Program-made: the position numbers and the translations under genes
NCBI RefSeq assembly: GCF_021729085.1
Contig: NZ_JAJSAR010000001.1
Location: 682,001-746,000, forward strand
Length of the DNA stretch: 64,000 nt
Direction of reading: 5' to 3'
Source: Pseudohongiella sp. O18
GTDB lineage: Bacteria > Pseudomonadota > Gammaproteobacteria > Pseudomonadales > Pseudohongiellaceae
Part shown: positions 39,016-52,337 of the stretch, piece by piece
Numbering within the stretch: position 1 is the first letter of the stretch
Layout: each line of letters begins with the position of its first letter
The notes under the pieces: model-generated
What the model saw: only the letters and a program-made list of their open reading frames with translations
Database searches by the model: none
What the model was told of the DNA's origin: nothing

Positions 39016-41133
39016 CTAAGCAACACCCTCATTGCTGCCTTGCTGAGCCAGCTTTGCCAGCAGACCGAATAACGCAGTGTCGTTAAGCAGCGCCATTTTT
39101 TCCCGGCGATTCATCCAAGCCAGAACCTCCGATACATCCGCAGCATCACTGAGTTTGAGCCTGGCGCCGGCGGCATCCATGTCCGGATCTCCGCGGCGTT
39201 TGACCGGACGCTCTCCGGCCAGATTGAAATGGCGGGACGCCTTTTCGCTGTCCGTTAACAGCAGCGGAACGTCCACGGCATCCACCACATTCTGGAACTC
39301 TTCCCGGTAGCGATCACGGTCGTTAATTTCCGGCGCAGAGGACACCTCTTCAGGAATCCGCAGCAGCCCCAGCCAGGCCAGCATTCGCGCAAAGCTTTTG
39401 CTGCCGCTGAGCGCTGACAGAGGGATCGACAGTACCAGGCCAGTAATAATTGGCAGCATCCAGTAAAGTAGCGGGTTTTGCAGCAACACCAGGCCTGCCA
39501 GCACGCTAATGCCGACCAGGGTGTGAAACCAGTGGTGCTTGAACAGCAGGCCCCAGTCGGTGCCATGGGTATCGCGCTGCTGAGTTGACCAGCCCGAATC
39601 CTTGCCACGAATTATTTCCCAGACCTGGCGGCTGTGAATCATCATAAATATGGGCGCAAAAAGTATCGAAAAGAACAGCTCAAGTGCCGCACTCAGTGTC
39701 AGCCGGATGGGCCCCATGGCACTGCGAACATCGCGCCGGAACAGGCCAGCCAGGTATCCCAGTAACTTGGGTAACAGCAGCACCGACATGGTGAACACAA
39801 ACAGCATGATCATGCGCTGTGAGTCAAATACTGGCCAGTGGGGGAATAGCTGAAAGTCGTCAGTGAAGTATTCAAAGCCCTGGGTTGCAATCTGTGCACT
39901 GATCAATAGGCCCACTGTCATCATGGCCAGCCATAGCGGCGATGCGATATAGCTCATCACGCCGATCAACATGTGCATGCGATTGGGCCAGCGCATGCCT
40001 CGTGTCGGAATCACGCCCAGATGCTGGATATTCCCCTGAGCCCAGCGTCTGTCCCGCACCGCAGAATCCAGCAGGGTAGGCGGGCTTTCCTCCCAGGAAC
40101 CTGTCTGTGCCGGCATCATGCGAACTGACCAGCCCGCTCGGCGAATCAGCGCTGCCTCCACGAAATCGTGTGACATGATATGACCACCAAATGGTCGTGG
40201 CCCGGACATGACGGGCAGTCCTGCCGCACTGGCGAAGGCAGAGACACGAATAATGGCATTGTGGCCCCAGTAATTACCGTCATCACCCTGCCAGGCGGTC
40301 ATACCATGCGCGACGACGGGTCCGTACAGCGTGCCAGCAAATTGCTGCAGACGGGCGAACAGCGTCTTGCCGGCGTAGAGTCGTGGCAAGGTCTGCAAAA
40401 TCCCACAGCCAGGATCCGCATCCATTTCCCTGACCATGAAAGTCAGGGTGTCGGCTGCAATCAGGCTGTCTGCGTCAAGCACGATCATATAGTCGTACCG
40501 AGCCCCCCAGCGGGTCACGAAATCCTGCACATTACCGGCCTTGCGCGCTGTGTTCATGTAGCGGCGCCGATACCAGACCGAAATGCGCCCTTGAAGGCGC
40601 TCGCGCAGCATGTCCACCGCAGCCGTTTCTTTGACCCACACATCCGGGTCGGTGGAATCAGAAATAATGAAAATCTCAAACCAGTGTTGTTGCTGTCTGG
40701 TGATCAATGCTTCAGCCATGGCCAATAATGCGGAGCAGGTGGCGGCAGGATCTTCGTTGTAGACTGGCATCAGCAAAGCGGTCTTGCCACGCGGCTGGGC
40801 GCCTGAACTGGCAGCGGCCTTGGGGTGGCCAAAAAACAGTCCGGCTATGGCGCCGGTTGCAGCCAATGCGATCCAGCCAAAGGTCAGCAGGTACAGGACC
40901 AGTAACAACCACTGCAGTCGGGTCACATCGCTGACCGAGATAATCAGATACATCTGGTAGCCGGCGTAGGCGGTTAGCGCCAACGCCCCAGGAAACGTGA
41001 TCAGTCTGGCCAGAAAGGTTGCCAGAGACTGCCAGCGAAATTGAACCTGCGGAGCAACCTTCAGATTCTGCGCTGGCATGTCCAGCGGCGCCGGCTGGGG
41101 TGTGGCGCCAACAATTTCCCTTATTGAGTCCAT
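39016..41133 (-). CDS. opgH: Osmoregulated periplasmic glucan glucosyltransferase OpgH
   Basis: This inner-membrane GT2 enzyme polymerises beta-1,2-linked glucose from UDP-glucose for osmoregulated periplasmic glucans. Visible motifs are LLMPVYNEDP, the DxD site in MIVLDADSLIAADT, and RDRRWAQGNIQHLG (the QxxRW-type motif), with hydrophobic segments on both sides. At 705 residues it is well short of E. coli OpgH (847); the missing part is mostly the cytoplasmic N-terminal region. Its ATG overlaps the opgG 3' end by 13 bases. Confidence 0.93.
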   Translation of the reverse strand: MDSIREIVGATPQPAPLDMPAQNLKVAPQVQFRWQSLATFLARLITFPGALALTAYAGYQMYLIISVSDVTRLQWLLLVLYLLTFGWIALAATGAIAGLFFGHPKAAASSGAQPRGKTALLMPVYNEDPAATCSALLAMAEALITRQQQHWFEIFIISDSTDPDVWVKETAAVDMLRERLQGRISVWYRRRYMNTARKAGNVQDFVTRWGARYDYMIVLDADSLIAADTLTFMVREMDADPGCGILQTLPRLYAGKTLFARLQQFAGTLYGPVVAHGMTAWQGDDGNYWGHNAIIRVSAFASAAGLPVMSGPRPFGGHIMSHDFVEAALIRRAGWSVRMMPAQTGSWEESPPTLLDSAVRDRRWAQGNIQHLGVIPTRGMRWPNRMHMLIGVMSYIASPLWLAMMTVGLLISAQIATQGFEYFTDDFQLFPHWPVFDSQRMIMLFVFTMSVLLLPKLLGYLAGLFRRDVRSAMGPIRLTLSAALELFFSILFAPIFMMIHSRQVWEIIRGKDSGWSTQQRDTHGTDWGLLFKHHWFHTLVGISVLAGLVLLQNPLLYWMLPIITGLVLSIPLSALSGSKSFARMLAWLGLLRIPEEVSSAPEINDRDRYREEFQNVVDAVDVPLLLTDSEKASRHFNLAGERPVKRRGDPDMDAAGARLKLSDAADVSEVLAWMNRREKMALLNDTALFGLLAKLAQQGSNEGVA

Positions 41134-42731
41134 CTATATATCCAGGTTTCGCCCCACTGTTTATCATTGACGTGCAGAGTCACGCGTAATTCCATCAGAT
41201 CGGCACGGCCCGGGTCGATCCTGATAAAGGCGCGATACTGACCCGTCGCCTGGACCAGCGTACCACTTGTGTCGATCAGGGTACCGGCGCTATTCGTGAC
41301 ACGTATCTCGACGGCGTCGGAATCCGTGATGACATTGGGAATCGTGTCACCACCTGCGTAGTCGATTACAAATACCATGTCATCGCCATTTATCGACTGA
41401 CCGCGGCTGGTGTCGGTAATCCGCCCCACCTCCAGCTCATACGGGCCAACCGGGCCCCAGTGCATGCGATACCGGTAATCATACTGGTTGCCGGGTTGCA
41501 GACTGTCTTCGGGCTGCCAGTAAGCCACGATGTTGTCGTGAACTTCCTGCGGTGTGGGAATCTCAACCAGAACCACCTCACCAACGCCCCAGTTTTCCAA
41601 TGGCTCTATCCACAGCGAGGTGCGCTTGTCATAGCGAGCTTCGCTGTCGTTAAAATCTTCGAACTGATTGTGACGCTGCATCAATCCAAAGCCTTTGAGA
41701 GAGGACGATGCGGAGGATACAAACGATGAAGACTGCAGGCGCCGCGGGTTGGCCAGCGGGCGCCATATCTGCTCGCCGTTCTGCATCATGATCTGCAGCC
41801 CGTCGGAATCATGCACCGCCCGGCGGTAATCGTCATAGCGACTGCGGTTGGTGTCGTCAAACATGAACATGGAGGTCAGCGGTGCGATGCCGTAGTGCGT
41901 CATTTCCTCACGGGGGAAGAGAGAGGCCTCTACGTCCATGACGGTCGAATCGCCCGGCCGTATATCAAATCGGAAGGCACCGGTGGTTGATGGGCTGTCG
42001 AGCAGAGCGTGGATCACAATCTTCTCAGCACCCACCTCCGGCCGCTCTATCCAGAAATCCGTGAAATAAGGGAACTCCTCACCTTCCGGGCGGGCGGTAT
42101 TGATCGCCATGCCGCGCGCTGAAAGCCCATAGAACTGGTCCTTGGCCGTGCCCCGAAAGTAGCTGGCACCCTGGAAAACCAGGAACTCCTCGAAGCGATC
42201 GGGTGTATTGATCGGGTGATATACGCGGAAACCCGAGTAACCCTGAGCGTCAAAGTTCTGTACGTCGCTGATGCCTTCCTCATACCGGAATATGTCGGTG
42301 GTGTAGAGCACCTGACGCGATACACCGCCCACTACCAGATTGATATTGACGGGGGTGGTGTACAAAAAACCCGGGTGGAAAAGATCGAGCGTAAAATTCC
42401 TATCCTGTCGTGCCCAGATAGCCGCATACGGATCGAAAGAAATGCGTCGATACTCGTCATAGTCGAGTTCGTTAAGTGGATTGTCCTCATCAAGTGCCGG
42501 CAGTTCGAAAGGCTGCTCAGCCAGTGATCGTGCGTGTTCAAGCAGCCACTGGCGACTGAATCGATGTGTAAGACGCTCTGGTTCTGCCGAGGCGGTGCTG
42601 GCGGCAGTGCCGGTCGGGCTGGTGGCTCCTGACGGCTGTGACTGCGTCAGTACCGGCGCTGCAAAAACCAGAACGACCGTACAAATGAGCGCGGTCAATA
42701 TGGCGTAAGCGGGGGACTTTCTGATAACCAT
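41121..42731 (-). CDS. opgG: Periplasmic glucan biosynthesis protein OpgG
   Basis: Periplasmic partner of OpgH in glucan branching and release. The 536-residue protein has a signal peptide (hydrophobic core about residues 10-28), the N-terminal OpgG beta-sandwich (LDLFHPGFLYTTPVNINLV) and the family block FDIRPGDSTVMDVEASLFPR. AGGAAAG precedes the ATG. First gene of the opgGH operon, with a long upstream spacer that contains an 18-bp palindrome. Confidence 0.94.
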   Translation of the reverse strand: MVIRKSPAYAILTALICTVVLVFAAPVLTQSQPSGATSPTGTAASTASAEPERLTHRFSRQWLLEHARSLAEQPFELPALDEDNPLNELDYDEYRRISFDPYAAIWARQDRNFTLDLFHPGFLYTTPVNINLVVGGVSRQVLYTTDIFRYEEGISDVQNFDAQGYSGFRVYHPINTPDRFEEFLVFQGASYFRGTAKDQFYGLSARGMAINTARPEGEEFPYFTDFWIERPEVGAEKIVIHALLDSPSTTGAFRFDIRPGDSTVMDVEASLFPREEMTHYGIAPLTSMFMFDDTNRSRYDDYRRAVHDSDGLQIMMQNGEQIWRPLANPRRLQSSSFVSSASSSLKGFGLMQRHNQFEDFNDSEARYDKRTSLWIEPLENWGVGEVVLVEIPTPQEVHDNIVAYWQPEDSLQPGNQYDYRYRMHWGPVGPYELEVGRITDTSRGQSINGDDMVFVIDYAGGDTIPNVITDSDAVEIRVTNSAGTLIDTSGTLVQATGQYRAFIRIDPGRADLMELRVTLHVNDKQWGETWIYRWTQ

Positions 42732-43180: not shown

Positions 43181-44851
43181 TTGCGTTTTACTCTTCGCAC
43201 TTCCCCATTTGCTCATTACGCGATGACGATCTCGGCGTTCGCTGTGCTGTTCCTCGCACTGGTTCTACCCAATCGCCTGGACTGGATATCACCAGCAGCT
43301 TTCACGATGTTTCCGCTGGAGCTGATCCTCATCGGGATACTCCTGCTTGCTCCCGGGCGTAGCGGCACCGTGCTTCGAATCCTGCTGTCAGTTCTGCTGG
43401 GCCTGAGTCTGGTACTCAGAGGGGCTGACCTGGCGACTCACGAGATGTTCGCCCGGCCGTTTAATCTTATTTTTGATGGGCATCTGCTGGCCGATGGCAG
43501 TCGCTTGTTGACTGGAGTGCTGGGAAGCGTCGCTGCTGTTGCTGTCGGTATTTTGCTGGCATTGATGGTCGCCCTGCTTTGTGTGCTGGCATTTCTGGTG
43601 CTTGGTCGCATACAGCAGACCTTGCGAATAAAACCCAGGCTGTCCGGCGTGACTCTGCTAGTGCTGCTGACTGCCTGGTGCGCGCTTGACACATTCAGGT
43701 GGGTGGAGCGGCCACGAACCGACGCCTACGCCTGGCATCAGCTAAGACTGCACGCCGAAGATACCTGGCGAAGCTGGCAGGACATTCAGGAATTTGCGGC
43801 CACCGTCGGTGTCGATGAGTGGTCTGACCGTCTCGGTGATCAGCTGTTTGATCGCTTGCGTGGTAAAGATGTGCTGGTGATTTTTGCTGAGTCCTACGGG
43901 CGCATGCTGCTTGAACGAGAGCCGTTTGCCGACCAGATGCGTGATGCATTGTTGCAATCCGAAACGGTGCTGCGTGACGATGGATTTGAAATGCAGAGCG
44001 CATTTCTGACGGCACCTACCGTCGGTGGCCTTAGCTGGCTGGCGCATGCGTCCGCACTCGCAGGCACCTGGATCGACAGCGAGACTCGTTACAAAAGTCT
44101 GGTCATGAGCGAGCGAGCCACGCTAAACCGATTGTTCAGAGACGCAGGCTGGCGAACCGTCGCCGCGATGCCGGCAATCAGCATGGCCTGGCCTGAGGGT
44201 CAGTATTATGGCTACGATCACATTTATGATGCACACAATTTTGGATATCGGGGATTACCTTTCAATTGGGTGACCATGCCCGATCAATATGTCCTGTCTG
44301 CATTACATGAGCGGGAACTCAGTGAGCAGGTGCGTCCCCCAGTCATGGCCGAGGTCGCACTGATCTCCTCGCATGCACCATGGACTCCGGTGGCGCAGCT
44401 GGTGCCCTGGGCAAAGGTTGGCGATGGGCGCATTTTTGACCAGCAGGCCCAGGCCGGTCCGACACCAGAGGAAGTCTGGCAGAATGTTGAATCAATCCGC
44501 GATCACTATCGACGCTCGATTGAGTACATGCTGGAATCCGTAGTTTCTTACGTAAAACATTATGGAAACGACAATCTCGTTGTTCTGCTTTTGGGCGATC
44601 ACCCGCCTGCGCCTTTAGTATCAGGTGATCCGGAAGGACGTGATGTCCCTGTGCATCTGATCGCGCGAGATCCGGCCGTATTCGAGGCTGTATCGCAGTG
44701 GCGCTGGCAGCCAGGAATGCTGCCGGACGAGAACGCGCCGGTATGGCGTATGGATCAACTGCGAGATAGATTTGTAGACGCCTTCTCCAGCACCCGTTTG
44801 CCTCTGGAAAAAACGGGCTCTGGCGGATCAACAGCAACAGGAGCCAGGTAA
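43181..44851 (+). CDS. Sulfatase-like (alkaline phosphatase superfamily) membrane enzyme
   Basis: This 556-residue protein has an N-terminal block of about five membrane segments (residues 14-170) and a C-terminal periplasmic sulfatase-fold domain. The domain has VLVIFAESYGR (metal-binding start), a TAPTVGGLSWLAHASALAG segment likely holding the nucleophile, and LLLGDHPPAP near the end. The architecture resembles phosphoethanolamine or phosphoglycerol transferases, so it may transfer a lipid-derived phospho group to a periplasmic acceptor. TTG at 43181 is the longest start; ATG at 43223 is an alternative. Its TAA overlaps the next ATG (TAATG). Confidence 0.8.
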   Translation: MRFTLRTSPFAHYAMTISAFAVLFLALVLPNRLDWISPAAFTMFPLELILIGILLLAPGRSGTVLRILLSVLLGLSLVLRGADLATHEMFARPFNLIFDGHLLADGSRLLTGVLGSVAAVAVGILLALMVALLCVLAFLVLGRIQQTLRIKPRLSGVTLLVLLTAWCALDTFRWVERPRTDAYAWHQLRLHAEDTWRSWQDIQEFAATVGVDEWSDRLGDQLFDRLRGKDVLVIFAESYGRMLLEREPFADQMRDALLQSETVLRDDGFEMQSAFLTAPTVGGLSWLAHASALAGTWIDSETRYKSLVMSERATLNRLFRDAGWRTVAAMPAISMAWPEGQYYGYDHIYDAHNFGYRGLPFNWVTMPDQYVLSALHERELSEQVRPPVMAEVALISSHAPWTPVAQLVPWAKVGDGRIFDQQAQAGPTPEEVWQNVESIRDHYRRSIEYMLESVVSYVKHYGNDNLVVLLLGDHPPAPLVSGDPEGRDVPVHLIARDPAVFEAVSQWRWQPGMLPDENAPVWRMDQLRDRFVDAFSSTRLPLEKTGSGGSTATGAR

Positions 44852-45624
44852 TGCAGACGCAAGCTAATACGACTTCCCTGGCGACCCGGCTGCGCGAGCG
44901 ATGGGGGCTGACAAGATCTTTACTGATGTACTACGGCATTCCGGGACGTCAGGCACGGATGCGAAACTTCTACAGGCAGTTCATATCACCGGGCGATCTG
45001 TGTTTCGACATCGGGGCGCATGTTGGCAATCGGCTTAAGGCGTGGCAGGCACTGGGTGCACGCTCCGTTGCCGTGGAGCCACAGCCGTTGCTGATGCAGA
45101 CCCTACAAAGCCGCTACGCCAGCGCAGAGGACATTGATCTCGTGGCCCAGGCGATTGGTGCGCAGCCAGGTGAGGCAACGCTGCACATCAGCACTCAGAC
45201 GCCGACTGTGACAACCATGTCCCAGGAATGGATAACACAGGTAAAACAGGACGCCTCATTCGAGCGTGTTAAATGGGATCGTCAGCTTGTGGTGCCGGTA
45301 ATCACGCTGGACCAGCTGATTGCCGCAAAAGGCGAGCCGGTGTTCTGCAAAATTGACGTGGAAGGATTTGAGCTGCAGGTCCTGCAGGGATTATCGCGCC
45401 CGCTTCGCAGCCTGTCGTTTGAGTACATCCCTGCAGCAATATCGATGGCGACCGATTGCATTAATCGCCTCGAAGAGCTCGGCAACTATGAGTACAACCT
45501 GGCACCTGGTGAGTCACATCGACTACGCTATGATCAATGGCTTGCGGCTGACGATATGCGACAGCAGCTGAAGAACATTAGCCAGGGCAGTGGCGATGTC
45601 TACGCCAGGCTGCGCACTCGCTGA
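44851..45624 (+). CDS. FkbM-family methyltransferase
   Basis: SAM-dependent O-methyltransferase of 257 residues. Motif I reads CFDIGAHVGNRLKAW (about residues 52-66), followed by AVEPQPLLMQTL and the FkbM hallmark FCKIDVEGFELQVLQGL. These enzymes usually methylate sugar hydroxyls or secondary metabolites. The TAATG overlap with the sulfatase-like gene means coupled translation. It is convergent with the next methyltransferase, with only 25 bases between stops. Confidence 0.88.
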   Translation: MQTQANTTSLATRLRERWGLTRSLLMYYGIPGRQARMRNFYRQFISPGDLCFDIGAHVGNRLKAWQALGARSVAVEPQPLLMQTLQSRYASAEDIDLVAQAIGAQPGEATLHISTQTPTVTTMSQEWITQVKQDASFERVKWDRQLVVPVITLDQLIAAKGEPVFCKIDVEGFELQVLQGLSRPLRSLSFEYIPAAISMATDCINRLEELGNYEYNLAPGESHRLRYDQWLAADDMRQQLKNISQGSGDVYARLRTR

Positions 45625-45649
45625 TTGCTGACCTGTACACGGCTACCCT

Positions 45650-46495
45650 CTACCTGCTCACGTGCTGCGGAAGCGCCAACAGATCCATGTGTCCCACACT
45701 GCAGCTGCCGGTATGTACATTGGCCAGGCGAAAGTTTATCCATTCCTGCAGTTCTGCCTGCTCAATTGACGACTGCACCGCATTGGCGATGCCATGTATC
45801 AGCTCGGTCATCAGTTGAGTGTCACCAGCAGTGCCATGATTGCCGCGCAGCAGCCACGGACTGCTTGCCGATAACACAGTGTAGCCGGCAGCGGTCAACA
45901 CCTGAGTGAGGCAGGCGGAGGCATGTGGGCCGAGTGCCGGACCAAAGCCTTTATCCCGGCGCTGGTCCTGATTAAAAGCCTGTAACACTGTCATATCCAG
46001 CTTGTGAGCCGGAGTCCAGCGAGTAATGCCGTCATAGTTCAGTGCTGTATACACGGCGATCGGATGAGTCTGGCTGGCAATGGAGGCGACCAGGGATTCA
46101 ATAAACTCAGCGGACACAAGGTCAAACAGTGCTGACGCGGTTAACAGATTTATATCGCTGAGGGAGAGATGCTCTGGCTGAGCCAGATCTGCCACCCGGG
46201 TTTCCAGGCTGTGCCCGGCTCCGTAACGTTCAGACGCCACGCTCAGCAGGTCGGCATCGTGGTCAATCAGACGCCAGGCATATCGACCGGTTTCAATGCC
46301 GCCTGCGGCGAATGCGCGCAGCGTGGATCCGGTACCCGAACCGAGGTCTGCAATCATGGGCTGCTGCCTGTCGCGAGACTGCTCAGACGACGACTGATCC
46401 AGCCACTGCTGGGCACGTGCCAGCAGTGCAACATCACGCGCACGCAGGTCTGCAGCCTCACGTAAATCGAGCCAGTCGACACTGAACCCGGCCAT
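45650..46495 (-). CDS. Class I SAM-dependent methyltransferase
   Basis: This 281-residue protein has motif I IADLGSGTGSTLRAF (about residues 48-62), followed by LIDHDADLLSVA. The middle block FDLVSAEFIESLV is typical of uncharacterised small-molecule methyltransferases. Its start overlaps the end of the glycosyltransferase gene, so the two are translated from one minus-strand message. The substrate is unknown; the setting suggests the product of the neighbouring GTP-derived pathway. Confidence 0.8.
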   Translation of the reverse strand: MAGFSVDWLDLREAADLRARDVALLARAQQWLDQSSSEQSRDRQQPMIADLGSGTGSTLRAFAAGGIETGRYAWRLIDHDADLLSVASERYGAGHSLETRVADLAQPEHLSLSDINLLTASALFDLVSAEFIESLVASIASQTHPIAVYTALNYDGITRWTPAHKLDMTVLQAFNQDQRRDKGFGPALGPHASACLTQVLTAAGYTVLSASSPWLLRGNHGTAGDTQLMTELIHGIANAVQSSIEQAELQEWINFRLANVHTGSCSVGHMDLLALPQHVSR

Positions 46496-47577
46496 TAGTA
46501 ATCACTCCTGTTTGCCAACTCTTCAGTTAAGTTCAGCACCAGCATTGCGCTGTCCCTCCAGCCAGGCAGTGCCAGGGCTGCCTGCCTCGCGCCGCGCTGT
46601 AAGGCCTGTCGCCGCGAGCTGTCGGTAAGCACCTCGCGCAAGGCGGCGGCAAGCGCCTCTGCGTCATCGGCAGGTACCAGAATGCCAGCAGACGCTGGCA
46701 CAACATCGGGGACAGCTCCGGCGCGCGCTGCGATGACCGGTAAACCCGCTGCCAGCGCCTCAGCAAAGACCATTCCATAGCCCTCAAATCTTGATGGCAG
46801 CACAAACAGATCAGCCTGCTGATATTCGGGCTGCAGATTTTCCACTGATCCGACGAAATCAATACGCCGGGCCAGCTGCTCTTGGTTCACTTGTGCTTTC
46901 AATTGCTGGGCCCACTCCCGGTCGAAATGGTCGCCGCCGACGAAACGTGCCTGCCACGGCAGATCCTTCAGTGCGCCGAGTGACTCAATCAGCACATCAT
47001 GCGCTTTACGGCGAGTCAGTGAGGCAACCGTCAACAGGCGGGGAGGATTACCAGTACAGGGGGCGAATTCGCTTCGATCAGTGCCGGGGCAGGCCACCAG
47101 GATGCTGTTTGTGTCGAGATCGAACTGATTGCGCAATATTTCTGCGGTATGAGGACTGGTGACAACTGTCGCACGAGCGCAATGCAGAGAGCGCTTTTCG
47201 GAGTGATGCAGGGCGTCCTGCTGCGCAGCACTCAGACCCGCCTCAAGTGATAATGGATGATGACACAGGGCAATCAGGCTCAGCCGCCTGGCGTGGCGAC
47301 TGACAATCTGATCCATGACGCCCATTGCCAGGCCATCAATCATGACCTGGGCGCCATCGGGGATAGCTGAAAGTTTCTGCTCAGCATCAACAAGCGCGTC
47401 TTTATCTGGTGTCGGAAAGCGGTCCGACAGCGCAATCGGAATGACCTGTTTGCCAAGCGTACGCAGCTCACTGATCAATCGCCGATCATAGTGATAGCCG
47501 CCAGTGGGTGTGCCGAGATCTCCAGGGAAAACAAAGTAGAGGGGCAGGGTGCTCACAGCTGATTTGATCCGTTCCAA
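46495..47577 (-). CDS. Glycosyltransferase family 4 protein
   Basis: This 360-residue GT-B fold transferase has an N-terminal acceptor domain with FPGDLGTPTGGYHYDRRL. Its C-terminal donor domain (about 175-345) has ASLTRRKAHDVLIESL and the EX7E motif in FEGYGMVFAEALAAGLPVIA. It is encoded divergently from ribA across about 100 bases, so both promoters must lie there. It probably glycosylates the product of this locus. Confidence 0.88.
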   Translation of the reverse strand: MERIKSAVSTLPLYFVFPGDLGTPTGGYHYDRRLISELRTLGKQVIPIALSDRFPTPDKDALVDAEQKLSAIPDGAQVMIDGLAMGVMDQIVSRHARRLSLIALCHHPLSLEAGLSAAQQDALHHSEKRSLHCARATVVTSPHTAEILRNQFDLDTNSILVACPGTDRSEFAPCTGNPPRLLTVASLTRRKAHDVLIESLGALKDLPWQARFVGGDHFDREWAQQLKAQVNQEQLARRIDFVGSVENLQPEYQQADLFVLPSRFEGYGMVFAEALAAGLPVIAARAGAVPDVVPASAGILVPADDAEALAAALREVLTDSSRRQALQRGARQAALALPGWRDSAMLVLNLTEELANRSDY

Positions 47578-47678
47578 TGCAACAGTCGTAATCTAATTAA
47601 CAGTCAGACCACCTTACCACGGCGCTGACCCGGAAACTGCAAGTTTCAGTCAAAACAGTCAATCTAGAAGAGCGTGCC
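47578..47678. promoter_or_regulatory. Divergent promoter region of the glycosyltransferase and ribA-like operons
   Basis: Only about 100 bases separate the two divergent starts, so promoters for both arms of the locus are probably here and may be co-regulated. I see an A/T-rich centre (AACAGTCGTAATCTAATTAACAG) but no motif I can assign with confidence. Confidence 0.5.
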
Positions 47679-48302
47679 ATGAGCAAACAATCGCTATCCG
47701 TCACCCGCAAAGTCTGCGCCAGAATTCCTACCGACCACGGCGACTTTCAATTGTGTCACTTCGCCAACACCCTGGACGATAAAGAGCACCTTGCCCTCTA
47801 CATGGGCAATCCGGCTTCGGTCGATCCGGTGCTGGTCCGTGTCCACTCTGAGTGTTTCACCGGTGATGTGCTGGGGTCGCGGCGATGTGACTGTGGTGAA
47901 CAACTCGACCGGGCGATGGCCATGATTGCTGAGGCTGGCACCGGCGTGATTCTCTATCTGCGACAGGAAGGCCGCGGCATCGGTTTGCCAGATAAACTGC
48001 GCGCCTACAATCTGCAGGATCAGGGGTACGATACAGTTGATGCCAACCTGATGCTGGGTCATGTGGCAGATGGACGCGATTACTCACTGGCGGCCTTGAT
48101 GCTGCAGGATCTGGGAGTGCGTTCAGTGCGATTGATGACCAATAACCCCGCCAAGATCGATGCACTGACTACGGCTGGCGTTAACATAGCCGAGCGCGTG
48201 TCGCTGCAGATCCCCGCCAACAACGACAATTTCGATTACCTGTTGACCAAAGCCCAGCGAATGGCTCATCTTTTGCCACTGAGTTCCCTAAACAGTCAGT
48301 GA
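47679..48302 (+). CDS. ribA: GTP cyclohydrolase II
   Basis: Converts GTP to 2,5-diamino-6-ribosylamino-4-pyrimidinone 5'-phosphate, formate and pyrophosphate. The 207-residue protein keeps the zinc ligands Cys59, Cys70 and Cys72 with normal spacing (SECFTGDVLGSRRCDCGEQ), the YLRQEGRGIGL catalytic strand and MTNNPAKI. It is a stand-alone GCH II without the RibB domain. It heads a plus-strand operon with a RibD-type reductase, an MDR enzyme and a PTPS-like protein, so it may feed a special pathway rather than, or besides, flavin synthesis. Confidence 0.93.
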   Translation: MSKQSLSVTRKVCARIPTDHGDFQLCHFANTLDDKEHLALYMGNPASVDPVLVRVHSECFTGDVLGSRRCDCGEQLDRAMAMIAEAGTGVILYLRQEGRGIGLPDKLRAYNLQDQGYDTVDANLMLGHVADGRDYSLAALMLQDLGVRSVRLMTNNPAKIDALTTAGVNIAERVSLQIPANNDNFDYLLTKAQRMAHLLPLSSLNSQ

Positions 48303-48306
48303 CTTC

Positions 48307-49041
48307 ATGAATTTCAATCAACGCCTCGAGCAATGGTTGGTCGACGCACAGCAGGCTTTTCACCAGAGCACGGGGCGCATTGAACAGCGCCCGCATGTCA
48401 CTCTGAGCTATGCGCAGAGCTGGGATGGCAGTATTACGACCGGACCTGGCGAAACGCTCGCCTTGAGCAGCCCTGAAGGACTGCGCATGACACACCAGCT
48501 GCGCAGCCTGCACGATGGCATCCTGGTAGGCATTGGTACCGTTCTGGCTGACAACCCACGTCTAAATGTCCGCGAGTGGACCGGCAATGACCCACAGCCA
48601 ATTGTGCTCGACAGCCAGCTGAGACTGCCGCCCAGCAGCAGGCTTTGCCAGAATGGCAGTAATGGAAAACGACCTTGCTGGGTGTTGACCACACAGCAGG
48701 CGGAAGCAAAGCGAGAGGGCTGTGATCTGATTGTGACACCCGGTGACGGTGAGGGGCATGTTGATCTCACACAAGCCATGCAGGCACTCTATCAGCGCGG
48801 AATCAGAACATTGATGGTTGAAGGTGGTGCTGCTGTCATTACGGCATTTTTGCGCACACGTCTGGCAGACGCCGTGGTATTGACGGTGGCGCCTGTGCTT
48901 GTTGGCGGTTACAACGCGATTGGCAGACTGGCTGATCCTGCTAAGGTGAACTTTCCGCATATCACACCTCTGCAAAGCGAACAGCTCGGGGATGAAATGA
49001 TAGTCTGGGGCAAATTGAAGTATCGCGCGGAGGCAGCATGA
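48307..49041 (+). CDS. RibD C-terminal-type (pyrimidine) reductase, no deaminase domain
   Basis: This 244-residue NADPH-dependent reductase is of the RibD_C / dihydrofolate-reductase-like fold. It has PHVTLSYAQSWDGSITTG, DGILVGIGTVLADNPRLNVR and LMVEGGAAVITAFL, all family motifs. The N-terminal cytidine-deaminase-like domain of bifunctional RibD is absent; the first 27 residues are unrelated. It is predicted to reduce the ribosyl group of the GCH II product to ribityl, as in fungal and archaeal order. Its TGA overlaps the next ATG. Confidence 0.88.
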   Translation: MNFNQRLEQWLVDAQQAFHQSTGRIEQRPHVTLSYAQSWDGSITTGPGETLALSSPEGLRMTHQLRSLHDGILVGIGTVLADNPRLNVREWTGNDPQPIVLDSQLRLPPSSRLCQNGSNGKRPCWVLTTQQAEAKREGCDLIVTPGDGEGHVDLTQAMQALYQRGIRTLMVEGGAAVITAFLRTRLADAVVLTVAPVLVGGYNAIGRLADPAKVNFPHITPLQSEQLGDEMIVWGKLKYRAEAA

Positions 49042-50051
49042 GCGCGGGCATGGCAAGCACAACCCAGCTCTGGTTCACTGCGCCAAAACAGATAGAGCTG
49101 CGCAAGGTGAGTCTGCCAGCACCCACGGCAAATCAGGTGCTGGTCAGGACACTGTATTCCGCCATCAGCGCTGGCACCGAGCTGCTGGCCTATCGTGGAC
49201 AGCTGCCGGCAGACCTGGCGCTGGACAGCACGCTGGAATCCCTGCAGCAGCACACCAGCTATCCAATGCAGTACGGTTATGCCTGTGTTGGAGAAATTGT
49301 AAAAGTGGGTTCCGGACTAGATGCAGAGTGGGCAGGGCGCCAGGTGTTTTCATTTCAGCCTCACGCCAGTCACTTTCTGACCGACACACAAAATCTGCAG
49401 CTCGTGCCCGACGATATACCGGCCAGGGCCGCCGCTTTTCTTCCCAACACCGAAACCGCCGTCAATCTGGTTCAGGATGGTGCGCCCGTGATGGGGGAGC
49501 GCGTAGTTGTTCTTGGACAGGGTGTTGTCGGACTGTTACTGACGGCTCTGCTGGCCAAGCATCCACTGGCTGAGTTGATAGTTGTAGAGGGTCGCGCTGA
49601 GCGGCAGGCCCTTGCCAAACAGCTGGGTGCGCATCGGGTCGTGCACCCGGATGAGGCTGCTGCTCAGATCAGTGATGCAGATCTGATCTATGAAGTCAGT
49701 GGGCAGCCCGCTGCACTGGATACAGCTGTCGCTGTTAGTGGCTACAGCAGCCGCATCGTGATTGGCAGCTGGTACGGCAACAAAGAAGCGTCCATCAATC
49801 TGGGCGGCGCCGCGCACCGCAACCGGCTGCAATTGATTACCAGTCAGGTCAGCACGGTGGCGCCTGCTCTGACTGGTCGCTGGGACAAGCAGCGACGTTT
49901 CGAACTGGCCTGGCAGATGATTCGAGAGTGCGACCCGCAGCGACTGATCAGCCATGTCGAGCCGATACAGGATGCCGGGTCTGTGTATCAGCAATTGGAT
50001 GAGGAAATACTGAGTGTGGTCCAGGCACTGTTCGAGTACCCGGATTCATAA
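49038..50051 (+). CDS. MDR-superfamily dehydrogenase without obvious zinc ligands
   Basis: This 337-residue medium-chain dehydrogenase/reductase has an N-terminal GroES-like part (LYSAISAGTELLAYRG, YGYACVGEIVKVG) and a Rossmann domain with VVLGQGVVGLLLTALL (about 150-165). The Cys and GHE residues of zinc alcohol dehydrogenases are missing: the usual GHE place reads YACVGE. The SAGTE segment resembles BchC-like and other zinc-free members. The ATGA overlap couples it to the reductase gene. It is predicted to oxidise or reduce an intermediate of this pathway. Confidence 0.82.
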   Translation: MSAGMASTTQLWFTAPKQIELRKVSLPAPTANQVLVRTLYSAISAGTELLAYRGQLPADLALDSTLESLQQHTSYPMQYGYACVGEIVKVGSGLDAEWAGRQVFSFQPHASHFLTDTQNLQLVPDDIPARAAAFLPNTETAVNLVQDGAPVMGERVVVLGQGVVGLLLTALLAKHPLAELIVVEGRAERQALAKQLGAHRVVHPDEAAAQISDADLIYEVSGQPAALDTAVAVSGYSSRIVIGSWYGNKEASINLGGAAHRNRLQLITSQVSTVAPALTGRWDKQRRFELAWQMIRECDPQRLISHVEPIQDAGSVYQQLDEEILSVVQALFEYPDS

Positions 50052-50104
50052 GCAGGAATGCCCGCCAGCTAAAGGCGCGCCAACAAACAGCAACAGGAAT
50101 TACT

Positions 50105-50485
50105 ATGTATACCGTAGCCGTAACACGTGATTTTATCGCCAACCATTACTTGATCGGGGGCGACTGGGGATCCGAAAACAGTCCGCACGCACATCACTAT
50201 GTCGCCGAAGTCCGCATCGAAAGCGACACGCTGAATCAGCATGGATACCTGGTGGACATCGTCGAAATTGAAGCGGCACTCGATGATATTGTCACCTACT
50301 TTCGCGACAGCATGCTGAATGACAAACCGGAGTTCGCCGGACTGAATCCCAGTATTGAACATTTCAGCCGAATACTGGTTGAGAAGCTGATGCCGGAAAT
50401 AACGCCGCCGGGCAAAGGTGTTCTGACCGTTAAACTCTGGGAAAACGAAACCTGCTGGGCCGCGTACCGTCAGTCCTTTGCCTGA
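50105..50485 (+). CDS. 6-pyruvoyl-tetrahydropterin synthase / QueD-like protein lacking the catalytic Cys
   Basis: This 126-residue T-fold protein has zinc ligands His14 (FIANHYL), His28 and His30 (SPHAHHY). The conserved CxxxHGH motif has Glu in place of the catalytic Cys and Ala in place of Gly. VDIVEIEAALDDIV and the pterin-anchoring Glu in NPSIEHFSRIL are kept. Binding of a pterin-like or purine-derived ligand is therefore likely, while QueD or PTPS chemistry is doubtful. It ends 16 bases inside the convergent flippase-like gene. Confidence 0.82.
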   Translation: MYTVAVTRDFIANHYLIGGDWGSENSPHAHHYVAEVRIESDTLNQHGYLVDIVEIEAALDDIVTYFRDSMLNDKPEFAGLNPSIEHFSRILVEKLMPEITPPGKGVLTVKLWENETCWAAYRQSFA

Positions 50486-51525
50486 CGGCGACCACCCAGG
50501 CTGCCCAGGCACAGCAGACCGATAATCAGTACCACGGCATCGCGAAGTCGTATTAGAGCAATCAGTGTGGCTGCCGCGGCAATGGGCATCCCCAGCAGAC
50601 TGAATGACCAAAGCAGCGATGCTTCGATGGTACCAATGCCACCTGGCACTGGCAGTAGCATGGCGAGTCGCATGCCCACCATGATCATGACGAGATTTAG
50701 AAAGTCGGGTTGAACACCCAGCATTCGCAGCAGCACAAAAAGCTCCAGCAGCAGCATGGCCCAGCCGAACAGTGATAGCAGCAGTGCGACCCAGAGTTTC
50801 AGGCGTTGCTCTTTGAGAGCGCCGCGTAATAAATTCACCATCGCAGACCAGCCACCGGAGCTGGTCTGAGCCTGCGGGTCTTCGGGCCGCGCCTGAAGAT
50901 CCGCAGTCGGATGAACATCATCGCTGTTGCGAGCCTGACGCCAGCGCTGTGCCAGTGGCCTGAATCGATCCGCCAGCCATTGTGGATGTCGTATGATCAC
51001 TGCCGCGGCCAGCAACATGCCACTTAGTACAAACACCAGTACCAGAGATATCTGCAGCCATTCTCCGGCGGGCAAAAGCGTTGTACCCAGCAGCACCAAT
51101 ACACCGGCGAGCAGCACGGCAAAATTGCTACCCATCTCTACAAAGCGATCCATTCCCAGCATGGCCACTGCTTTGTGTAGCGGTAAGTCGAATCTTGTTT
51201 TGAGCCAGTAGAGCTGCAAGGGCTCGCCACCAAAGTGTGGACCGGGTGTAATAAAGCTGACTGCACTGCCGGCCTGCCGTAGACGAAACAGGTCCGGCAA
51301 CCACATGGGTGCCGAAAGCGCACGGCCCAGAATCTGCCAGCGCTTGACTGCCAGATAGAGAATGACAACATTAATGGATACCCACAGCAGCCAGTCACGC
51401 CAGCGCAGCCTGCTGATCCCGTCGCCAATGTCACGCAGTGGCAGCTGCCATAATGCATACCCGGCCAGCGTCAGCGCCAGGACCCAAAGCAGCACGGTCA
51501 GATATCGCCACTGAGCTTTTGTCAT
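50470..51525 (-). CDS. Flippase-like membrane protein (LPG synthase TM / UPF0104 family)
   Basis: This 351-residue integral membrane protein has about eight hydrophobic segments and the family motif FITPGPHFGGEPLQLYWL, then MDRFVEM and LPVPGGIGTIEASL. The family includes the membrane half of MprF and proteins proposed to move or modify lipids. Its ATG overlaps the stop of the CDP-alcohol phosphatidyltransferase by four bases, so the two are translated together. A role in exporting a lipid-linked product is inferred. Confidence 0.85.
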   Translation of the reverse strand: MTKAQWRYLTVLLWVLALTLAGYALWQLPLRDIGDGISRLRWRDWLLWVSINVVILYLAVKRWQILGRALSAPMWLPDLFRLRQAGSAVSFITPGPHFGGEPLQLYWLKTRFDLPLHKAVAMLGMDRFVEMGSNFAVLLAGVLVLLGTTLLPAGEWLQISLVLVFVLSGMLLAAAVIIRHPQWLADRFRPLAQRWRQARNSDDVHPTADLQARPEDPQAQTSSGGWSAMVNLLRGALKEQRLKLWVALLLSLFGWAMLLLELFVLLRMLGVQPDFLNLVMIMVGMRLAMLLPVPGGIGTIEASLLWSFSLLGMPIAAAATLIALIRLRDAVVLIIGLLCLGSLGGRRQAKD

Positions 51526-52337
51526 GAGGCATTCTCAACTGAGGCGCCGCGTCGCCCACTCACGGCCAGCCAGTCACGCCAGAAACCAATCAACAGTGGG
51601 ATCATGAAGAGCACACCAAGCACCTGCGTAACACCGCCAGGAATCGGCGGCCACAGCGCGGTCGCCACCAGGCCCATTTGCCAGCCTGCCAGTTGGCGGC
51701 GCAGCTGACTGGGTGGCAGCGGGTATACAGCTTTGCCGTGCTGACGACGCCAGCGCAGCCCCCAGACAAACAGATAATAGGCAATGCTGACCAGCAGATA
51801 GCTGACATGCAGCTTGCCGGTGATCACCGCCAGCACTGGCGCGACCAGCAAGCCCAGCGCATCCAGTGTGGTATCCAGCTCGGCACCCAGCCTCGACACC
51901 TGCTGCTGGCGCCGGGCCAGCACACCGTCCAGTGCATCTCCAATGGCGGCTGCGGTATAGGCGACAGCGGGAATGTACAGCAGCGCGGTCGGTAGTGACA
52001 GGAGCAGGGCGGGCATCAGAAAGCCTGCTGTCACGGCGATCAAGAGTCCGCGTATCAGGGTCACACAGCTGCCGTGTCCGAGTGACGCATAAAGTACGTC
52101 GCTGTTTGCCGGGTGATTTAAATGCAATCGCTGCTGGCCTTGTCGCCACACATAAAACCAGACTGGCAGAGCAAGCGTCAGCCACATCAGCGCGAGCTCA
52201 CTTGAAAGCGACAATGCCAGGCTGAGTGCGCATAAGGCAATCAGCACACAACCCAGGACGGCAATGTAGCGCAGCTGGCGTACCAGAGATTGCGGTAAGT
52301 CACGGGTGGTTGCAGAATTTTTCGGGTTGGCAGCCAA
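51522..52337 (-). CDS. CDP-alcohol phosphatidyltransferase
   Basis: This 271-residue membrane enzyme carries the complete catalytic signature D134-x2-D137-G138-x2-A141-R142-x8-G151-x3-D155-x3-D159 in GDALDGVLARRQQQVSRLG and the following residues. About six hydrophobic segments are present. The family joins a CDP-activated alcohol to a second alcohol, usually making a phospholipid. It differs from PgsA and PssA in its long N-terminal region. The start is a TTG with a weak ribosome site and is uncertain. It pairs with the flippase-like gene. Confidence 0.87.
   Translation of the reverse strand: MAANPKNSATTRDLPQSLVRQLRYIAVLGCVLIALCALSLALSLSSELALMWLTLALPVWFYVWRQGQQRLHLNHPANSDVLYASLGHGSCVTLIRGLLIAVTAGFLMPALLLSLPTALLYIPAVAYTAAAIGDALDGVLARRQQQVSRLGAELDTTLDALGLLVAPVLAVITGKLHVSYLLVSIAYYLFVWGLRWRRQHGKAVYPLPPSQLRRQLAGWQMGLVATALWPPIPGGVTQVLGVLFMIPLLIGFWRDWLAVSGRRGASVENAS

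Follow-up and report, generated by a model that had tools for sequence, protein, structure and literature searches.

Pteridine glycosides have been described from cyanobacteria, Chlorobium and Sulfolobus (PMC5683033), and most pterins derive from GTP cyclohydrolase I (GCH I), according to a 2026 review of bacterial pterins (PMC13259868). The pteridine glycosyltransferase pathways (cyanopterin, Chlorobium PGT) are among the described systems closest to a cluster of ten genes that we analyzed in Pseudohongiella sp. O18. The cluster lies within a stretch of 64,000 nucleotides (contig NZ_JAJSAR010000001.1, positions 682,001 to 746,000), hereafter the window. As in those pathways, a glycosyltransferase is paired with a gene of the 6-pyruvoyltetrahydropterin synthase (PTPS) type. 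Unlike them, where biopterin-type pterins are glycosylated, the cluster puts GTP cyclohydrolase II (GCHII), a reductase and a medium-chain dehydrogenase/reductase (MDR) first, and adds lipid genes. The second comparison is with the fungal Rib7 and archaeal reductases that act on 2,5-diamino-6-ribosylamino-pyrimidinone phosphate (DARPP). The cluster reductase likewise stands alone, has a small residue other than Lys at the site of Thr35 in the fungal enzyme ScRIB7 and keeps the required residues, whereas the cluster sits in bacteria with a RibD of their own and has no later riboflavin gene among its ten. The third relative is SCO6650 of Streptomyces coelicolor (PDB entry 3d7j), which is the best PDB sequence match of the PTPS-fold protein in the window (E value of 2.8e-7) and is among its best fold matches, but which carries the motif GPAQxxHGA and so differs from the window type, where a Glu and a second His are present. 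We consider it probable that the cluster encodes a dedicated, widespread pathway that branches at DARPP, apart from flavin synthesis, and leads toward a glycosylated, lipid-linked product.

The ten genes form four tight groups in the list of open reading frames (ORFs): 43181-45624 (plus strand), 45650-47577 (minus), 47679-50485 (plus) and 50470-52337 (minus). Between neighboring ORFs there are either overlaps of 1, 4 or 16 bases or gaps of 4, 25, 53 or 101 bases. Genes were called from the ORF coordinates of the window, and families were assigned by Pfam and NCBIfam profile matches. Pfam backed nine of the ten ORFs, the methyltransferase weakly and below its cut-off; the "sulfatase-like" ORF had no Pfam match. 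All ten ORFs were found where the original prediction, made from the letters of the window, had placed them. The features are as follows.

43181..44851, plus strand: "sulfatase-like" membrane protein of 556 amino acids, TTG start (AlphaFold and Foldseek, conserved residues)
44851..45624, plus strand: FkbM-family methyltransferase, accessory (Pfam PF05050, E 1e-15)
45650..46495, minus strand: class I S-adenosylmethionine (SAM) methyltransferase (MT), partner of the glycosyltransferase (weak Methyltransf_25, below cut-off)
46495..47577, minus strand: family 4 glycosyltransferase (GT4; PF13692, PF00534)
47578..47678, no strand: divergent intergenic region of 101 bases between the GT4-MT and GCHII groups (ORF coordinates)
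47679..48302, plus strand: GCHII paralogue (PF00925, E 7.6e-69)
48307..49041, plus strand: stand-alone RibD_C reductase, fungal Rib7-like (PF01872 only, without a deaminase domain)
49038..50051, plus strand: MDR dehydrogenase (PF00107, ADH_zinc_N; TIGR01202 bchC, E 2.5e-26)
50105..50485, plus strand: PTPS-fold protein (PF01242, E 2.5e-26)
50470..51525, minus strand: LPG_synthase_TM (LPG-TM), flippase-like membrane protein (PF03706, E 5.9e-36)
51522..52337, minus strand: CDP-alcohol phosphatidyltransferase (CDP-OH; PF01066, E 2.1e-14)

We followed the gene set through other genomes by way of its MDR gene. Four MDR sequences were searched as an alignment against 84,980 species genomes, and the loci of the best 80 of 564 confirmed relatives, together with the window and three more, gave a sample of 84, which was scored with family profiles built for this analysis. 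The loci were picked by MDR similarity; the counts describe that sample and are not frequencies, and many of the 84 contigs end early. The profiles matched PTPS in 81 loci, RibD_C in 78, GT4 in 75, GCHII in 62, LPG-TM in 57, MT in 55, CDP-OH in 53, "sulfatase" in 32 and FkbM in 8. Forty-one loci have at least 7 kb on either side of MDR (35 from gammaproteobacteria, the window included, and 6 from Chloroflexota). In this full-flank subset, PTPS and GT4 were each found in all 41, RibD_C in 38, LPG-TM and CDP-OH in 34 each, GCHII and MT in 33 each, "sulfatase" in 21 and FkbM in 6. Gene order and strand vary between loci; the GT4-MT pair, for example, is found upstream in some loci, on the same or the opposite strand, and downstream in others. 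Since the set persists through changes of order and strand and across the lineages named below, the genes appear to be held together by function, and we ruled out chance neighborhood and plain shared ancestry. The original prediction had treated all ten genes as one set. Most of the flanking genes are indeed co-conserved in the full-flank loci; the FkbM methyltransferase is peripheral, although it also occurs in rhizobial loci L129, L135, L138 and L140.

The set recurs in Chloroflexota, Opitutaceae, Rhizobiaceae, Streptomyces and haloarchaea. Of 398 Pseudomonadota genomes in an even sample, 27 carry the MDR gene (E up to 1e-50), as do 18 of 37 close relatives. This survey gave 46 MDR matches from the even sample and the close relatives, 37 of which were fetched as loci and 9 of which had none; PTPS adjoined MDR in 36 of the 37, the sole miss being a weaker second copy (L173). 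When the window PTPS was searched alone, relatives above 40% identity were detected in 4 of 369 genomes of the class, host included, a count in which diverged forms are not told apart. Plasmids were searched by tblastn, with MDR matches in 32 records and PTPS matches in 14. We analyzed 22 plasmid loci: 21 from 25 of the 32 MDR records (L126 through its PTPS match) and L127 of S. fungicidicus through PTPS. The records left out were two second records of the same species or strain and two of H. marismortui ATCC 43049 whose identity and E value equal those of the H. sinaiiensis match that was analyzed. In Haloarcula marismortui the MDR and PTPS matches are adjacent. PTPS adjoined MDR in 20 of the 22 loci (the misses being L123 and L142; L126 and L127 had been chosen through PTPS), CDP-OH was present in 14, including those of haloarchaea, Rhizobiaceae and Streptomyces, and RibD_C was present in 10 of the 13 bacterial ones. 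In rhizobial L129 and L140, each of the ten families was recognized from annotation or by a profile, and a cytochrome b561 gene is present as well. The LPG-TM profile matched in 1 of the 22 loci; its misses there mean little, because the annotated proteins of L129 and L140 also went unmatched. Both Streptomyces loci (L126 and L127) hold MDR-PTPS-GT4-MT, CDP-OH, a creatininase-family gene and GCHII together. Among the nine haloarchaeal loci with MDR, PTPS and MT were each found in eight, a GT4 match in seven and CDP-OH in five; three of the seven GT4 matches are weak, with E values of 4e-8 to 1e-7, and lie at a distance of several kilobases. Diverged versions of the cluster occur in Rhizobiaceae, Streptomyces and haloarchaea.

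To place the cluster beside flavin synthesis, we compared it with the riboflavin genes of its host. Three GCHII-domain genes are encoded in the host genome, an assembly of 3.47 Mb in 4 contigs that is 99.99% complete. Two of them lie within a riboflavin set at C1:1444920-1451031 (L040), which encodes RibD with its deaminase, riboflavin synthase, RibBA, RibH and RibA. The host FolE and a QueD-type PTPS are also encoded away from the cluster. Among the ten cluster genes, Pfam detected no deaminase, RibB, RibE or RibH family. A complete rib operon exists elsewhere, the cluster GCHII is not the only one in the genome and most flanking genes are co-conserved, so that the outcome named as refuting the original prediction did not occur; the prediction of an undescribed gene set that starts from GTP is supported in this respect. 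We also examined three cluster-bearing metagenome-assembled genomes (MAGs) of Chloroflexota, G790, G793 and G794 (of loci L108, L106 and L112). RibB and RibH (lumazine synthase) were each found in none of the three by searches that were positive for both in all 14 control genomes. The cluster GCHII was the sole GCHII found in G790 and G794, and the cluster RibD_C was the sole RibD_C found in G790. Together, these comparisons support the view that the cluster is dedicated and does not serve flavin synthesis.

The type of reductase bears on where the pathway would branch. Work on ScRIB7 reports that Thr35, a position held by Lys in bacterial and by Asn in archaeal enzymes, influences whether DARPP or the deaminated compound is used, that the T35K change moves the enzyme toward the deaminated substrate, and that Thr79, Asp83, Glu180 and Gly182 are needed (PMC3631187). 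The closest PDB match of the cluster RibD_C protein was the Rib7-type reductase 4ha7 (E 4.1e-28). At the Thr35 site, the 78 cluster reductases carry Ser in 54 cases (the window among them), Cys in 11, Ala in 9, Thr in 3 and a gap in 1. One of these four residues, as expected of a DARPP reductase, was thus found in 77 of 77 readable sequences, the fungal Thr itself in only 3; the Lys that marks the bacterial specificity (EcRibD152/BsRibG151) was found in 0 of 77. The four required residues are kept in 78 of 78. Conversely, Lys occupies the site in the housekeeping RibD of the host and in six housekeeping copies from other cluster-bearing genomes. That comparison covered 24 loci, nine of which were left unused (seven without a profile match and two at 14 bits). 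The diverged reductases have other residues at the same site, Gln in rhizobia and His in Thiodictyon. We predict that the cluster reductase resembles fungal Rib7 in using DARPP, with reduction before deamination. The RibD_C profile matched in none of the nine haloarchaeal loci; it is a bacterial profile, which an archaeal-type reductase could escape. The absence of a dedicated copy is what would be expected if DARPP is the usual substrate of the archaeal reductase. In Streptomyces, no RibD_C match was found in S. fungicidicus at L127:11606-12644, a gap that in S. globisporus L126 is occupied by a RibD_C gene.

The first enzyme was examined in the same way. With E. coli numbering carried through 2bz0, the three zinc Cys of GCHII were kept in 61 of 61, 61 of 61 and 62 of 62 cluster copies, the Tyr105 equivalent in 61 of 61 and the Arg128 equivalent in 60 of 61; the roles of these five residues we assume to be those of the E. 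coli enzyme. A GCHII tree was built from 60 of the 62 cluster copies (L042 and L058 were dropped as short), 20 of the 29 GCHII loci from the genome search and one host copy. The 60 cluster copies group with L189, L191, L198 and L199, apart from the housekeeping GCHII and to the exclusion of all 10 remaining tips (support of 0.874); this set was defined after the tree had been viewed. L189 and L191 belong to two Cellvibrio genomes whose cluster is without GCHII and which have the cluster-clade enzyme elsewhere. L198 and L199 are further off-cluster copies from Methylomonas genomes and group with L037.

In other lineages the first enzyme appears to have been replaced. Archaeal GCH III makes a formylamino pyrimidine that a second enzyme deformylates to DARPP, and the creatininase-family protein BrbF is a bacterial formamidase yielding DARPP (PMC9478397). 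In four of the nine haloarchaeal loci (L123, L125, L132 and L133), an annotated GTP cyclohydrolase IIa gene overlaps the start of MDR; the L125 protein, the only one submitted to Pfam, is GCH_III (E 2.2e-82). The other five loci gave no GTP cyclohydrolase match. In both Streptomyces loci, GCHII has Met at the Tyr105 position, a change that would stop the enzyme at the formyl intermediate, and a creatininase-family gene lies next to it. The window differs on both counts, with a Tyr-type GCHII and no creatininase-family match nearby, as do the 84 loci to which it belongs: the creatininase-type gene was found in none of them, and in the 62 with GCHII the Tyr is present in 61 of 61 readable copies. 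One further creatininase-type gene was seen near haloarchaeal L131. Three lines of evidence support DARPP as the branch point: the type of the reductase, the replacement of the first enzyme (by GCH III, or by Met-type GCHII with a creatininase-family protein) and the Chloroflexota MAGs without RibB and RibH matches. For the first step, the two Cellvibrio genomes with a cluster-clade GCHII outside the cluster count as a further line.

The next two proteins belong to families whose named members they do not match closely. The best NCBIfam model for the MDR enzyme was BchC, at 92.5 bits against a cut-off of 291.25, which places it outside BchC, and its top PDB matches were threonine, butanediol and polyol dehydrogenases. 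For the PTPS-fold protein, a predicted model (mean confidence score, pLDDT, of 90.5) confirmed the fold, with a Foldseek E value of 2.2e-8 to 3qn0 (titled PTPS) and TM-scores by query of 0.75-0.83 against the best QueD chains and SCO6650. The motifs of the named classes are CxxxHGH for PTPS-I (QueD), CxxxxxHGH for PTPS-II and ExxHGH for PTPS-III (PMC5041015). None of the three fits the cluster protein, which has ExxxHxH and no Cys: E24 and N25 are present in 80 of 80 readable sequences and H28 in 76 of 80. The Glu stands one place further off than in PTPS-III, whose own Glu place is Asn in 80 of 80. By spacing, E24 falls at the place of the Cys; alignment with the host QueD gives a gap there instead. 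A second type, with GPAQxxHGA and without the Glu and the second His, occurs in Streptomyces, Rhizobiaceae, Methylosinus, Rhodobacteraceae SC52 and Thiodictyon. E113, which we take to be the ring-binding Glu of PTPS, is invariant in 45 aligned sequences. SCO6650 itself is not known to catalyze the reaction of PTPS, and SCO6655 is a GCHII whose product is altered.

Based on these families, we propose the following route. GCHII would convert GTP to DARPP, and the Rib7-type reductase would turn the ribose of DARPP into a ribityl chain without deamination, so that the product should be withheld from the bacterial RibD deaminase. Next, one side-chain hydroxyl would be oxidized by the MDR dehydrogenase. 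If this were C2', the oxidation would recreate, by chemical reasoning, the ketone that GCH I forms by an Amadori shift; reaction of the ketone with the 5-amino group could then form the second ring of a dihydropterin (dihydroneopterin phosphate), a stepwise bypass of GCH I. The PTPS-fold protein may bind and process the ring product, GT4 and the methyltransferase may decorate it, the CDP-alcohol transferase may link the decorated product to a phospholipid, and the flippase-like protein may carry it over the inner membrane. Where present, the LtaS/EptA-like enzyme discussed below could pass the phospho-headgroup to an acceptor. Sequence comparison supports the gene set, its dedication, the branch at DARPP and the type of reductase. 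All steps from MDR onward, among them closure of a pterin ring, addition of the sugar, linkage to lipid and flipping, we infer, with their order, from the enzyme families and the gene neighborhood. The end product is probably a sugar-bearing, lipid-anchored molecule of the cell surface.

The lipid-side genes were examined in turn. The CDP-alcohol phosphatidyltransferase motif D-x2-DG-x2-AR-x8-G-x3-D-x3-D is intact in the cluster proteins (51-52 of 52 at each place), and a CDP-DAG serine transferase was matched in the PDB (E 3.5e-4). The window protein termed "sulfatase-like" matched no Pfam family, falling below the Sulfatase cut-off, while 22 of the 29 members of its alignment match Pfam Sulfatase at E up to 0.05. 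Because PDB sequence searches with the single sequence and with the 29-row profile were both empty, we turned to a fold search with the AlphaFold model (pLDDT of 87.4). The best Foldseek matches were LtaP (E 3.8e-9, TM-score by query 0.38), EptA (1.5e-8, 0.44) and LtaS, with E values across these three of 3.8e-9 to 1e-7 and TM-scores by query of 0.37-0.44; GacH and BcsG were also among the first, and true sulfatases ranked lower. LtaP/LtaS, EptA, GacH and BcsG move phospholipid headgroups, and the LtaS/EptA superfamily uses a Thr nucleophile and Glu, Asp and His metal ligands. In 24 sequences including the window, E237, H398, D473, H474 and H492 are invariant and T280 is nearly so, as judged from the sequence alignment. 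The protein resembles LtaS, EptA, GacH and BcsG in fold rank, N-terminal helices and conserved candidate nucleophile and metal residues, and differs from them in its empty PDB sequence search and low TM-scores. The original prediction had called it a sulfatase-like enzyme; on the fold ranking, we reread it as more likely an LtaS/EptA-type phospholipid-headgroup transferase. Among 51 PDB matches of the window GT4, none was named a pteridine glycosyltransferase, and we discarded the identification of GT4 as a known enzyme of that kind. The methyltransferase at 45650..46495 had no PDB match.

A more specific version of the proposal, which we regard as tentative and on the doubtful side, is that the product belongs to a new class of membrane-anchored pterin ("lipopterin") of bacteria and haloarchaea, with a ring made without GCH I, and that it receives sugar and methyl groups, is linked to a phospholipid and is displayed on the cell surface. 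GCHII (or GCH III with a formamidase), the DARPP reductase and the dehydrogenase would then amount to an Amadori shift carried out by reduction and re-oxidation. Such a molecule could perhaps be a redox or signaling group, as cytochrome b561-type genes lie near 7 of the 84 and 7 of the 22 loci and YceI genes near 12 of the 84.

It is unlikely that the product is instead a soluble pterin or pyrimidine glycoside resembling cyanopterin or limipterin, with CDP-OH and the flippase as a separate, co-traveling lipid function. In favor of it, no unit is tighter than MDR-PTPS-GT4, which occurs in 41 of 41 full-flank loci, pteridine glycosyltransferases are known in cyanobacteria and Chlorobium (PMC5683033), and Neorhizobium L141 shows only MDR-PTPS-GT4-MT, beside mdoH. 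However, the lipid genes are each kept in 34 of those 41 loci, and CDP-OH persists in most plasmid loci across haloarchaea, Rhizobiaceae and Streptomyces. We also think it improbable that the ring stays open, that is, that 2,5-diamino-6-ribitylamino-pyrimidinone or an oxidized form is itself decorated and lipid-linked while the PTPS fold only binds it. The absence from the PTPS of the Cys of PTPS-I and -II and of the PTPS-III Glu position, the lack of a second His in part of the family, and the invariant E113 would all fit a binding protein. Yet a free 5-amino group beside a keto side chain is expected to cyclize by established chemistry, and PTPS-fold enzymes of known function presumably act on pterins. 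The idea of a spare riboflavin supply, for instance for secreted flavins, has in its favor that GCHII and RibD_C are riboflavin-type enzymes; we rejected it as very improbable, because the reductase is without the bacterial Lys, the ten genes are without deaminase, RibB, RibE and RibH, and three Chloroflexota MAGs that bear the cluster gave no RibB or RibH match. Equally hard to credit is a supply line to deazaflavin (F420) or to a known pterin route (folate, queuosine): Chloroflexota and Streptomyces may make F420, which uses ribitylaminouracil, but the cluster has no deaminase, the host has FolE and a QueD-type PTPS elsewhere, and the MDR-PTPS-MT unit is common to haloarchaea and gammaproteobacteria.

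Several observations weigh against a dedicated pathway from DARPP to a lipid-linked product. A bypass that ended in the same compound would be redundant, since dihydroneopterin is already supplied by GCH I. A third Cellvibrio genome (G789), with a cluster but no GCHII in it, shows only the housekeeping type of GCHII. Six of 14 Chloroflexota loci (L091, L106, L113, L115, L116 and L120) are without GCHII and RibD_C in the available stretch, and only L120 ends early upstream. The absence of RibB and RibH from Chloroflexota is not proof, because the MAGs are of unstated completeness; in G793, moreover, the sole GCHII found lies off-cluster (L183, L224) beside a reductase with Asn at the specificity site, and falls outside the cluster clade of the GCHII tree. 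The existence of two PTPS types makes a single PTPS chemistry for all clusters doubtful. On the lipid side, some loci lack LPG-TM and CDP-OH, the gene tables of the haloarchaeal loci hold no LPG-TM gene (L123 has an annotated oligosaccharide flippase instead), and the headgroup-transferase matches of the "sulfatase-like" protein have TM-scores by query of about 0.35-0.44, below 0.5, with sulfatases also among the matches.

Two genes of periplasmic glucan synthesis lie just upstream of the cluster:

39016-41133, minus strand: OpgH (MdoH) (NCBIfam)
41121-42731, minus strand: OpgG (MdoG) (Pfam, E 5.4e-178)

Both families were found in 6 of the 84 loci; two plasmid loci, Methylosinus L128 and Neorhizobium L141, have an annotated mdoH next to their cluster. 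OpgGH is possibly linked to the cluster, and periplasmic glucans as the headgroup acceptor are a weak lead. Rfam at its gathering score gave no match in 36000-60000, which includes the intergenic region at 47578..47678; the housekeeping rib operon of the host gave none either, so this result is neutral on regulation. Other neighbors vary by lineage. The cytochrome b561-type genes mentioned above lie in L043, L044, L045, L050, L079, L080 and L111 and in plasmid loci L129, L134, L135, L136, L138, L139 and L140; together with YceI, they hint at a redox or lipid-carrier function. Upstream of MDR, Chloroflexota loci without GCHII and RibD_C carry an aldo-keto reductase gene (L091, L106, L113 and L116) and an acyltransferase gene (L091, L106, L115 and L116), both by Pfam on L091. 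The off-cluster reductase of G793 has the archaeal-type Asn at its specificity site in a MAG without RibB or RibH matches. A group II intron-type reverse transcriptase gene adjoins the cluster at L037:8259-9437. Two MAG records titled Klebsiella pneumoniae (L070 and L109) encode clusters arranged as in L067 and L119, and on this gene arrangement alone the titles look mislabeled.

A search of the openly licensed PMC literature, with most subscription papers outside its scope, found no description of this gene set, as judged by titles and the first lines of abstracts. We know of no pathway that joins GCHII, a Rib7-type reductase, MDR, PTPS, glycosylation and lipid steps. Each single enzyme is from a known family, and the product may prove related to known pterins. 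The nearest printed traces that we found are the structure entry of SCO6650 (3d7j) and a single mention of SCO6655 in the available text of PMC2853524.

If the proposed pathway is correct, the first intermediate of riboflavin synthesis would also be a branch point to a small molecule common to bacteria and archaea, and in some lineages the first enzyme of that branch would have been swapped for one of another family. A PTPS subfamily that falls outside all three named motifs would gain a function, and the automatic names "6-carboxytetrahydropterin synthase," "zinc-binding alcohol dehydrogenase" and perhaps "sulfatase" would be corrected. According to the 2026 review, no pterin efflux system is known and the route of pterins to the periplasm is unknown (PMC13259868); a lipid-linked product carried over the inner membrane could bear on that route.

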